Below, one piece after another: positions 4,013 through 16,133 of a DNA stretch of 25,415 nucleotides. Position 1 is the first letter of the stretch; each line of letters starts with the position of its first letter. The translations under genes were made by a program, and so were the position numbers. Source of the DNA: a virus; the IMG/VR virus record IMGVR_UViG_3300033148_007493, positions 1 to 25,415 of that record; one strand, written 5' to 3'. The notes beneath the pieces are model-generated. The model had not been told where the DNA came from, ran no database searches, and saw only the letters and a program-made list of their open reading frames with translations.

Positions 4013-4390
4013 TTATAAAATCCTTTCAATAAGTTTTATTTTTTTATACATTTCAGTGCCCTCGTGCCAATTTCTATATCTACTTATTATCAACATTCCT
4101 TTTTCTAAGGGAGAACATAATAATAAGGGTGGTAATTTAACTTTGCCTTTCGCATTAACTTTCCATATTTCAAAGTTGTTTGGTATAGTAAAATTATAGA
4201 AATGTGTAAGAAATTCCAAAGCCGTTTTTAAATTAGAAAATACAGTTATATTATAACCATTTTCTGCACACCATCGGGGGCTTTTTACATATTTTTTTGT
4301 AGAATATGTAACGCAAGGCTTGCCTCGAATAATACTCGATATTAGCTCACCATTTTTATTGTAAACTACTTTAATTTTTTCTTTTTTCAT
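4013..4390 (-). CDS. Hypothetical phage protein, paralogue of the 6580-7014 product, 125 aa
   Basis: A 125-residue protein with a strong AGGAGG ribosome site. It shares an ordered pattern with the product at 6580-7014. Both have a KVV start, a V-x-Y strand, K[YF]V[KR][SA]P, A-x-x-GY-x-[IL]T-x-F, A-L-x-F and a closing G-T-x-M-[FY]-K-K segment. Such short alpha/beta proteins with a GY-x-x-T-F motif are common in phage accessory regions and have no established function. Structured RNA copy B lies just upstream of its leader. Confidence 0.65.
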   Translation of the reverse strand: MKKEKIKVVYNKNGELISSIIRGKPCVTYSTKKYVKSPRWCAENGYNITVFSNLKTALEFLTHFYNFTIPNNFEIWKVNAKGKVKLPPLLLCSPLEKGMLIISRYRNWHEGTEMYKKIKLIERIL

Positions 4391-5195: not shown

Positions 5196-5822
5196 TTACT
5201 TCCCCCTAAAATTATATTTTTCTTTTATTGGCAAACCCTCAATTTCTCTCCATATTATATAAATATCTTTTAAAAACATTTTTATCATGTATCTTAATGC
5301 AGCTCTATGTCTGTGCATTTTAGATTTACCCCATCCTTCTTTTTCTTTTCTCTCTTTGTATTCATAATAATATCTCGAATATTTGTTTTTGTCAATTAAA
5401 AATTTTTTGCCTAAACCGTCTAAAAGTTTAGTTTTTAGAAATGCATTATAGCATCTTTTTTGGTTTTTTTGTAATCTATCTGCTTTCCCGTTAGTTACTC
5501 CCAAACCGCAAAATTTCCATAAACTACTTATAGTATCAGCTTTGTGAATATCTACTTCTGAAAGTAAAACAGCAATTGTTTTTTCTCCCAATCCTTTTAT
5601 TTCTATTAATTTTTTATATAATAAAAAATTTTTTAGTAACTTTTTAATATAATTTAATGTTTCTTTCTCTAATTCTGTAAATATTTTTTCATATCGCCCG
5701 AATAATTCCAATCCGCTATCAAAATCTCCATATGTGTTAATTTTATTGTTCATTATAATTCTCATTTTTTGGTAATAATAATAAAGTCTAACAACCTTTT
5801 TAAGTTTTTCTTTATTATTCAT
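5196..5822 (-). CDS. IS110-transposase-related (Transposase_20-like) protein lacking the DEDD nuclease domain
   Basis: A 208-residue protein. Residues 1-70 form a probable coiled coil. A helix-hairpin-helix-like segment follows with IKGLGEKTIAVLLSEV (about 74-89), then SSLWKFCGLGVTNGKAD (about 99-115), and a C-terminal RHRAALRYMIKMFLKDIY...WREIEGLPI segment. This matches the C-terminal domain of IS110-family recombinases and a group of stand-alone proteins of about 200-250 aa in uncultured microbes and their viruses. The N-terminal RuvC-like DEDD domain is absent. Where active IS110 enzymes have the catalytic Ser-Gly, this protein has Asn-Gly-Lys. It is therefore unlikely to transpose and may be a DNA- or RNA-binding derivative. 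A structured RNA lies 24 bases upstream. Confidence 0.72.
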   Translation of the reverse strand: MNNKEKLKKVVRLYYYYQKMRIIMNNKINTYGDFDSGLELFGRYEKIFTELEKETLNYIKKLLKNFLLYKKLIEIKGLGEKTIAVLLSEVDIHKADTISSLWKFCGLGVTNGKADRLQKNQKRCYNAFLKTKLLDGLGKKFLIDKNKYSRYYYEYKERKEKEGWGKSKMHRHRAALRYMIKMFLKDIYIIWREIEGLPIKEKYNFRGK

Positions 5823-6317: not shown

Positions 6318-6688
6318 TTATTCCTCTATAAGATATATATCGTTTTCAGCAGCAAATTGATGTATTGTTTCAATTATTCAGGGTCTGTTTCAAAGGGGTA
6401 TCCTCTTTCAACTGCTTTTCTTTTAAAGTAATGTTTAAGAGTATCAAAATCATTACCTGTTTTCATACAGATTTGTTGTATGTGACCGTTGATATGATGG
6501 TTTTGGCTGTGTTTGCCTGTGGTTCTTTGTTTAAATGGTTTTTTGATTATGAGCTTATCCCATTCGCTTGTTCTTGACTTTAAATATAATTCCCATCCAG
6601 AACGACAAAATTCTGGTATTTCCCAGCAAGGATAAAATTTATGTTTAATAATTCTTTTTGTGGCATTTTTTTGAACATTAAAGTGCCT
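6318..6688 (-). pseudogene. Broken conserved phage gene (SQNHHINGH-type protein)
   Basis: On the - strand from about 6640 to 6377 the reading is WELYLKSRTSEWDKLI, PFKQRTTGKHSQNHHINGH, QQICMKTGNDFDTLKHYFK and GYPFETDPE, then a stop at 6374-6376. The -1 frame continues with IIETIHQFAAENDIYLIEE and a stop at 6318. These are the two ends of a conserved phage protein usually found near recombination genes, role unknown. About 20 residues normally between them are missing. The frame runs up to a stop at 6689-6691 without ATG, GTG or TTG, so the 5' end is also lost. Its 5' part overlaps the 3' end of the 6580-7014 gene. Confidence 0.6.
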
Positions 6689-7014
6689 TTAGGCCAAAAG
6701 AAAGTATGTATAAAATCTTTTAAAAATATTTTATTGTATTTTAATTTGTAAATATCGCACATAGATGGTAGTTGGGATATTGGTTCTCGTCCATCAGCTT
6801 TATATATTTTATAATTTTTTCTACAGGCAGGCCCAAAATTTAAAGCATCCTGATAAGTTTTAAATGCAGTTAAATGATAGCCTCTTTTTGCGGCCTCTTT
6901 CGGAGCCCTAACAAATTTTCCAACTTTATAATTTACTGATAACCAGCTTTTATACAGTACCGCTGATTTTAAGCTTTTGCAAGGTGAAGGTCGAACCACT
7001 TTATACACTATCAT
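6580..7014 (-). CDS. Hypothetical phage protein, paralogue of the 4013-4390 product, 144 aa
   Basis: A 144-residue protein with an AGGAGAG ribosome site. It begins MIVYKVVRP and shows V-x-Y-KVGKFVRAPKEAAKRGYHLTAF (pattern over residues 28-53), a DALNF helix and an IYKADGREP strand, matching the product at 4013-4390 in order. The paralogue ends soon after the G-T-x-M-F-K-K segment. The last 20 residues here are extra and overlap the broken SQNHHINGH gene, which suggests the natural stop was lost. The pentanucleotide array at 7093-7162 lies in its leader. Confidence 0.65.
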   Translation of the reverse strand: MIVYKVVRPSPCKSLKSAVLYKSWLSVNYKVGKFVRAPKEAAKRGYHLTAFKTYQDALNFGPACRKNYKIYKADGREPISQLPSMCDIYKLKYNKIFLKDFIHTFFWPKGTLMFKKMPQKELLNINFILAGKYQNFVVLDGNYI

Positions 7015-7092
7015 TTTCTCTCCTCTTTGCTCAAAAGTATAGGGTTTCTCTCTTTTTTAGACTTATTAATAATGATAAAAAACAATAAATAA

Positions 7093-7162
7093 TTACCTTA
7101 CCTTACTTTACCGAACCTAACCAAACCCCACCTTAACTTACCATACCACACCGCACCCAACT
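7093..7162. repeat. Array of fourteen NNACC pentanucleotides
   Basis: From 7093 to 7162 the + strand can be cut into fourteen 5-base units of the form NNACC (TTACC, TTACC, TTACT, TTACC, GAACC, TAACC, AAACC, CCACC, TTAAC, TTACC, ATACC, ACACC, GCACC, CAACT). Eleven end in ACC exactly, and the first two bases vary freely. On the - strand transcript this is GGU separated by two variable bases. It starts seven bases after the NinG-like stop and ends about 78 bases before the next start. An AT-rich stretch adjoins it. Confidence 0.85.
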
Positions 7163-7168
7163 TGGTTT

Positions 7169-7594
7169 TTAATAATGATATATCGTACTTTGTTTTGTTA
7201 AATCTTTTATTTTATTTACAATATTATAATTCATATATTTTAAATCTGTAATAGTAAATTTAACTGTTTGCTTTGCCTTTTGTTCTAATTCTTCTATAAC
7301 TTTTTCTCCATATTTTTCTTTCATAAATTCTCTGTATTCAATTGGTTTTCCTCGTCCAAAAGTGTTACAGCCAATACATTGAGCATGACAATTTCTTTCA
7401 TCGAACAATACAGAATTACGTCGACCTGGTAGGAAATGACCTGCCTGTAGTTTAATGAACGGAAAAACATTTCCACAGGTGCAACATCTTCCCATTCCTA
7501 ATGTACCTGTGGTATTAAGACAATCCCTTAGTCTTATATATTTTGAAAAGTTTTTTAATACTTTCTTTTTTAATTTTTTATATTCGGTACTCAT
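7169..7594 (-). CDS. ninG: NinG/Rap-like recombination protein
   Basis: A 141-residue protein. Residues about 37-43 carry CCTCGN, followed by LQAGHFLPGRRN, FDERNCHAQCIGCNTF and GKPIEYREFM. This CxxC...AGHF...NxHxQCxxCN...YR pattern is that of lambda NinG (Rap), a structure-specific nuclease or accessory of the phage recombination pathway with an HNH-like zinc fold. I chose ATG 7594 because CAGGAG lies just upstream and the start overlaps the previous stop (ATGA). An ATG at 7609 has no ribosome site. It lies downstream of the ERF and Cas4-like genes, giving a recombination module. Confidence 0.85.
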   Translation of the reverse strand: MSTEYKKLKKKVLKNFSKYIRLRDCLNTTGTLGMGRCCTCGNVFPFIKLQAGHFLPGRRNSVLFDERNCHAQCIGCNTFGRGKPIEYREFMKEKYGEKVIEELEQKAKQTVKFTITDLKYMNYNIVNKIKDLTKQSTIYHY

Positions 7595-7824
7595 ATTAAC
7601 TCCTGACATAATTTATTATATACACACCAAGAACAGGGGTATTTGCTTATATCAGTATAGTCTGGTTCAGGTATTGTAGCTTTTTCAACGCATTCTTCCA
7701 GATGTTGCCATCTTTTATAAGCTAATTCCCAATCATAATCTATACATTCGAGTTCTATTTGTGTCCGGTAAAAGTTATCCCTACCAAAATAAATAAAGAA
7801 TGCTTTTTCATGTGGCTTTTTCAT
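7591..7824 (-). CDS. Cas4-like nuclease, C-terminal piece with iron-sulfur cysteines
   Basis: This 77-residue frame continues the preceding PD-(D/E)XK nuclease frame. It reads HEKAFFIYFGRDNFYRTQIE and then YPCSWCVYNKLC, the CxxC-x5-C part of the Cas4/AddB iron-sulfur cluster. Its ATG lies in the second copy of a 13-bp tandem duplication (7801-7826) that changed the frame. Removing one copy fuses it in frame to the upstream piece at HEKA. It has no strong ribosome site of its own, but the 17-base overlap could allow re-initiation. It overlaps ninG at ATGA. Confidence 0.7.
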   Translation of the reverse strand: MKKPHEKAFFIYFGRDNFYRTQIELECIDYDWELAYKRWQHLEECVEKATIPEPDYTDISKYPCSWCVYNKLCQELI

Positions 7825-12539: not shown

Positions 12540-12600
12540 GGGGATGGTTAGGATTGACAGCCTTTTTGGCTGGACACCGGTTCGAATCCGGTCATCTCCA
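12540..12600 (+). tRNA. tRNA-like element lacking a D-arm, UUU in the anticodon position
   Basis: A 7-bp acceptor GGGGATG (12540-12546) pairs with CATCTCC (12593-12599, one G-T pair) and is followed by A. A perfect T-arm ACCGG-TTCGAAT-CCGGT precedes the 3' acceptor strand directly. CAGC-CTTTTTG-GCTG makes an anticodon-like arm of only 4 bp with TTT at 34-36. Only 11 bases (GTTAGGATTGA) lie where the D-arm should be. GTTAGGA resembles the 3' part of tRNA-Glu/Asp D-loops, so the 5' half of the D-stem seems deleted. Total 61 nt; no encoded CCA. The next gene's GGAGGG follows at once. It could be a degraded tRNA or a tRNA mimic. Confidence 0.6.
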
Positions 12601-12610
12601 GGAGGGAAAA

Positions 12611-16023: not shown

Positions 16024-16099
16024 TTTAAGTTGAAAACTTTGTTTTAAGTTGAAAACTTTGTTTTAAGTTGAAAACTTTGTTTTAAGTTGAAAACTTTGT
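16024..16099 (+). repeat. Four tandem copies of a 19-bp leader motif
   Basis: The unit TTTAAGTTGAAAACTTTGT is repeated four times without change at 16024, 16043, 16062 and 16081. A variant ATGAAATTTTTAATTTAAAGG (from 16106) runs into the ribosome site of the 16134 gene. The unit resembles motifs at 12521, 15459 and 20557 that also precede gene starts. No coding sense is seen. Confidence 0.92.
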
Positions 16100-16133
16100 T
16101 TTAAAATGAAATTTTTAATTTAAAGGGGATTTT

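Follow-up and report, generated by a model that had tools for sequence, protein, structure and literature searches.

What is a run of pentamers with a fixed triplet and changing spacers doing between two genes of a phage? The window analysed here, 25,415 nucleotides of IMG/VR virus record IMGVR_UViG_3300033148_007493, carries such a run at positions 7093–7162, where the plus strand shows 14 NNACC pentamers: TTACC TTACC TTACT TTACC GAACC TAACC AAACC CCACC TTAAC TTACC ATACC ACACC GCACC CAACT. Eleven of these are perfect, the ACC bases are fixed at 39 of 42 positions (A in 14/14 units, the first C in 13/14 and the second in 12/14), and the NN pairs take nine different forms. Read 5′ to 3′ on the minus strand, the array becomes AGTTG GGTGC GGTGT GGTAT GGTAA GTTAA GGTGG GGTTT GGTTA GGTTC GGTAA AGTAA GGTAA GGTAA, with GGT as the triplet in 11 units and a single substitution in the remaining three (AGT twice, GTT once).

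A period-5 triplet scan of the window returned the array as its best run (39/42), followed by a T-rich stretch at 32/42 as the next independent run; the remaining high scores came from the array itself, shifted in register. The array had a GGY-weighted score of 11.6, whereas 200 dinucleotide shuffles averaged 0.7 and never exceeded 4.6; elsewhere in the window the score rose no higher than 2.6, and a second array is absent. These values confirm, at the same coordinates, what a sequence-only reading of this DNA had reported, namely 14 NNACC units, 11 of them perfect, with varying NN. Mismatches against the commonest letter amounted to 14/28 in the NN positions and 3/42 in the triplets (Fisher P ~1e-4).

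The array is intergenic and begins, on the minus strand, 6 bases past the stop codon of a NinG/Rap-like endonuclease gene (7169–7609, minus strand; phrog_5034, E = 1.8e-30; Pfam NinG, E = 9.8e-18). The next gene downstream, in the same direction, encodes a 144-aa protein (6580–7014, minus strand) that gave no PHROG, Pfam or PADLOC match and no match to the profiles of Vipr, the partner protein described below. The GGT-NN strand is thus the minus strand, which is the coding strand for both flanking genes; the sequence-only reading was right that a leftward transcript would show GGU-NN upstream of the 6580–7014 gene, and that strand is most likely the functional one. Scanning 6900–7700 for promoters and terminators gave weak consensus matches at most, and an Rfam search at the array gave no match. 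A 12-base direct repeat, TATCATTATTAA on the minus strand, flanks the array as an exact pair, with copy 1 at 7066–7077 and copy 2 at 7169–7180, the latter taking in the NinG-like stop codon; it has three matches at one mismatch or fewer, as against 1.65 expected, and the pair is possibly due to chance.

We scanned IMG/VR with runs of five and, after that, eight exact ACC-NN units; the figures that follow hold among the matches listed. Many unrelated phages have long arrays with freely changing NN, and each of the 16 dinucleotides makes up 4 to 11% of NN over 1,725 units, although plain microsatellites, such as those of CGACC, also occur among the matches; 15-nt coding-type repeats seen in the scan (e.g., TTACC TAACC TAACC) were left out. 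A mirror control with CCA-NN produced 67 loci and no run with at least seven different NN, whereas ACC gave at least 88 such runs. A nine-unit scan of GTDB genomes yielded at least 119 loci, of which three were diverse among the matches listed.

The orientation and position seen in the window recur in these carriers. Array matches lay all on one strand in 34 whole virus records (for instance, 210 versus 0 in a 112-kb record) and, as far as simple in-house gene calls define gene positions, 55 of 56 array clusters in 26 records were intergenic. A coding repeat was rejected on this count. For 49 of the 55 intergenic clusters the GGT strand was the coding strand of both neighbours, and many clusters start 3–20 bases past a stop codon. 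Alongside 1,253 perfect GGT units, the arrays of other carriers contain GGC (88), TGT (33), GTT (19), GAT (10), AGT (10), GGA (9) and GGG (2). Since the variants are mostly GGC, then TGT, GTT, GAT and AGT, we write the motif as GGY.

Related phages allowed triplets to be compared directly with spacers. Between L048 and L177, which are 90.5% identical over 8.4 kb, the triplet is the same in 95.7% of the units compared across their sub-arrays and NN in 17.9%. The comparison that the sequence-only reading had proposed thus came out in favour of kept triplets and changing NN, in phages other than relatives of the window phage, and its argument for selection on the triplet is supported both by this pair and by the excess of NN mismatches within the window array. 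In the group of L078, L180, L188, L193 and L203, the flanks are alike, but blocks of units, set apart by GGCA separators, have changed places. Rfam searches of nine carrier loci gave no match. As a separate observation, the arrays of L186 (74–543 and beyond) are split by conserved 42-nt hairpin-like units (GCTTACAGCCCACGGCGGTCTAACGAC...CCGTGGGCATTAA), for which there was likewise no Rfam match.

An all-versus-all comparison of the proteins of array carriers brought out one family far ahead of the others, about 180–210 aa long and encoded beside the arrays. It corresponds to phrog_4652, annotated as of unknown function and without a Pfam or NCBIfam model. The family is present in 30 of the 34 records that had been picked by array alone and in 2 of 55 CCA loci, whereas none of 118 bacterial microsatellite loci has it; the 80/98 obtained in the same comparison is not an independent count, because several carriers are related and some loci overlap whole records, whereas 30/34 is counted by record. 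Against solved structures, the phrog_4652 profile gave a strong match to one entry, PDB 36pp, 'SUSP1 Vipr protein' (E = 1e-43), and an AlphaFold2 model of the family (pLDDT 92.5) matched Csm3 and type VII Cas7-like subunits (best E 1.6e-7). By profile and predicted structure, then, the array partner in other carriers is the RAMP-fold protein Vipr, mostly encoded less than 1 kb from an array. A second small family, phrog_15946, also of unknown function, adjoins arrays and Vipr in 12 carriers (e.g., L435:9051–9533, L140:4419–4928 and L180:2710–3207) and is a candidate accessory (vap) protein. The Vipr family also has matches in two control genomes, those of Thermotoga maritima and Caulobacter vibrioides.

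The presence of Vipr followed the diversity of NN. With flanks examined, Vipr was found at 1/77 loci when the number of different NN was one to four (0/51 for one or two), at 2/8 for five or six, at 6/10 for seven or eight and at 21/25 viral loci for nine or more. This gradient bears on the simplest origin of such a tract, the decay of a TTACC microsatellite. Pentamer microsatellites exist, and the left end of the array, TTACC TTACC TTACT TTACC, looks like one, but the changes in the window array are concentrated on NN, Vipr is missing from all loci with one or two different NN and nearly always present at those with nine or more, and the CCA control gives almost no diverse arrays. We consider this origin very improbable, and reject microsatellite drift on NN diversity and the CCA control.

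The G-rich strand might instead act by structure alone when transcribed, through two-layer G-quadruplexes or an R-loop, with no guide function. The RNA-like strand does have GG at five-base intervals, and in most phages this strand runs in the direction of transcription. A G-quadruplex, however, has no requirement for a pyrimidine as the third base, which is the rule in these arrays (GGC 88, against GGA 9 and GGG 2), and for this reason we disfavour structure alone; the exact period of five and the tight link to a RAMP protein also speak against it, and it seems highly unlikely.

TRAP, a ring-fold protein, recognises (G/U)AG triplets separated by 2-nt spacers, with a period of five, and the spacers carry no information. 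The window array shares the triplet, the 2-nt spacer and the period, and the sequence-only reading had therefore likened it to a TRAP site. Nevertheless, the triplets of the window are GGT, AGT and GTT, and the motif is GGY, not (G/U)AG; TRAP (PF02081) was found in none of six records, the window and five array carriers, in a search that does match Bacillus subtilis; and the arrays are accompanied by a RAMP family instead of TRAP. Binding of the GGU-NN repeats by a ring protein like TRAP is therefore extremely improbable, and the comparison with TRAP sites has to be given up. What survives of it is the idea that a repeating protein–RNA contact sets the 5-nt period; the partner in other carriers is Vipr, a RAMP-fold protein that coats the RNA.

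Such a system has been described in a 2026 preprint as VIPR (Viral Interference Programmable Repeat), in which the phage RAMP protein Vipr is bound to small RNAs, the vrRNAs, made of 9–16 GGY/NN (YNNGG) repeats and an invariable structured 3′ tail (PMC13142463). The NN pairs read double-stranded DNA, each pair resuming after a single skipped base, and DNA binding leads to repression of competing phages (PMC13142463). Motif, strand, intergenic position and protein family were found here independently, and all agree with that report. The window array (14 units, within the published range of 9–16; PMC13142463) is of the same kind as the Vipr-adjacent arrays of other phages, and we regard it as very probably the repetitive part of a guide RNA of the VIPR type. 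The NN positions, taken at first as free spacers, would then be the information, because in VIPR the NN pairs are the guide letters that recognise DNA (PMC13142463); in TRAP sites they would be idle. The ring-shaped binder 'not yet described' that had been suggested was indeed undescribed until the VIPR preprint, but the protein reported there has a RAMP fold, not that of TRAP.

In sequence, number and layout, the window array resembles the vrRNAs of Escherichia phage SUSP1 and Felixounavirus: it shares the GGY/NN pentamers, a unit count within the published range and hypervariable NN, and is likewise intergenic and in sense with phage genes. It differs in having one array only, no vipr gene in 25 kb and no recognisable SUSP1-type tail. 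The A+T-rich stretch between the array and the next start codon (7015–7092, minus strand), which has no clear structure, would contain both the 3′ tail of the RNA and a ribosome binding site. Folding of 7010–7170, a single copy of a region whose tails vary among VIPR types, gave no structure beyond that of shuffles (z = 0.45). VIPR in general shares with Class 1 CRISPR-Cas the RAMP-fold subunits (Cas7/Csm3 on crRNA) repeated along a guide RNA, whereas the window lacks CRISPR repeats, spacers and cas genes, and its guide letters are scattered, two per five bases. TIGR-Tas shares phage-borne tandem guide-RNA arrays with the window, and differs in protein and array layout as far as the available description goes (PMC12045711).

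From these parallels, the array would be transcribed leftward with the NinG-like operon into an RNA of 14 GGY-NN units, on whose GGY triplets Vipr-type RAMP subunits would sit, presenting the NN pairs. Taken jointly, the pairs would match DNA that has one unread base between them, and this binding would keep a competing genetic element repressed. We infer transcription, loading by a Vipr from elsewhere and DNA targeting for the window array; the Vipr itself might be encoded by a missing part of the phage, by the host or by a co-infecting phage. In VIPR the RNA code is noncontiguous, and the protein that reads it may be ancestral to the backbone proteins of CRISPR. Because the arrays were reached here from raw DNA and the protein was recovered by neighbourhood alone, the results check the central claim of the preprint independently: a constant GGY, freely varying NN and a neighbouring RAMP protein.

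Searches with phrog_4652, a 40-member profile, an iterated HMM and per-ORF hhalign recovered no Vipr from the 25,415 bases of the window. This absence from 25 kb is unusual, since carriers mostly have Vipr within 1 kb of an array. The window is not alone in this, and good GGY/NN arrays without a recognisable Vipr also occur in the long records G010 (L034; 105 kb), G012 (L110 and L457; 67 kb), G018 (L136; 67 kb) and G032 (L202; 55 kb). Such phages may have a Vipr that is too divergent for the profiles or encoded outside the available sequence; otherwise these are orphan arrays that work in trans. Diverse-NN arrays of this sort point to orphan guides or to Vipr types yet to be recognised. Tentatively, orphan vrRNA arrays in some phages (the window, G032, G018, G012 and G010) may use the Vipr of a host, prophage or rival phage, or an unrecognisably divergent binder, a possibility we rate on the low side; if true, guide RNAs that borrow the effector of another element would add a new layer to phage–phage conflict.

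Alternatively, the array could be the remnant of a VIPR locus that has lost vipr and whose guide array is drifting without present function. Besides the lack of Vipr in the record, non-GGY units make up 3 of 14 in the window, compared with 5% in the single-run arrays of other carriers (P ~0.03), although the latter had been chosen for exact repeats. Yet AGT, GTT and TGT units are also found in genuine VIPR loci, including that of Felixounavirus REP10, which has the same array type; 11 of 14 intact triplets would be hard to retain without selection if the loss of vipr were old; and the window record looks like a fragment. We consider a remnant rather unlikely.

By the published skip rule, the guide of the window array reads TGxGCxGTxATxAAxAAxGGxTTxTAxTC, then four AA units. 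Neither the ten-unit pattern nor units 2–10 had an exact match in IMG/VR, and no target was found inside the window at three mismatches or fewer. Units 1–9 matched four contigs, which represent two independent IMG/VR sites. One of these (L458/L461) is antisense to a 166-aa ORF, and all its skip bases fall on wobble positions of that ORF (Y-K-P-L-F-I-T-A-Q), as the skip bases of true VIPR targets are reported to do (PMC13142463). We do not claim this site as a target, because one to two such matches to 18 fixed bases are expected by chance in IMG/VR, by our own estimate for ~4e10 bases. An underpowered attempt to recover the skip rule from 318 array runs against 4.4 Mb of DNA, in which true targets are unlikely, gave no skip length that stood out. 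With no Vipr in 25 kb and no target found, we therefore class the array as of vrRNA type and as an orphan within this record; it does not count as a complete VIPR system.

The window record appears to be a fragment of a phage genome, because it ends among structural genes and no integrase, lysis or tail-fibre gene was recognised among the window proteins scanned. Neither the 144-aa neighbour nor the terminase led to relatives of the window phage in IMG/VR, and the terminase is at most 29% identical to those of annotated phages. Several other features of the window deserve mention. The uncharacterised proteins encoded at 4013–4390 and 6580–7014 (minus strand), the latter directly downstream of the array, look like paralogues by eye. 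Between them, 5196–5822 (minus strand) encodes a 208-aa protein resembling the C-terminal domain of IS110-type transposases (phrog_4285, E = 6e-29), with a Pfam Transposase_20 match below the cut-off. A 19-nt tandem repeat, TTTAAGTTGAAAACTTTGT, is present in 4.3 identical copies at 16024–16123 (plus strand), between structural genes. Finally, a 64-nt tmRNA-like remnant at 12540–12603 (plus strand; Rfam tmRNA, 51.3 bits), in which the match joins both ends of the model, retains an acceptor stem (GGGGATG/CATCTCC) and a T arm without the messenger part, and lies immediately ahead of a ribosome binding site and the ORF of a trypsin-like protease.
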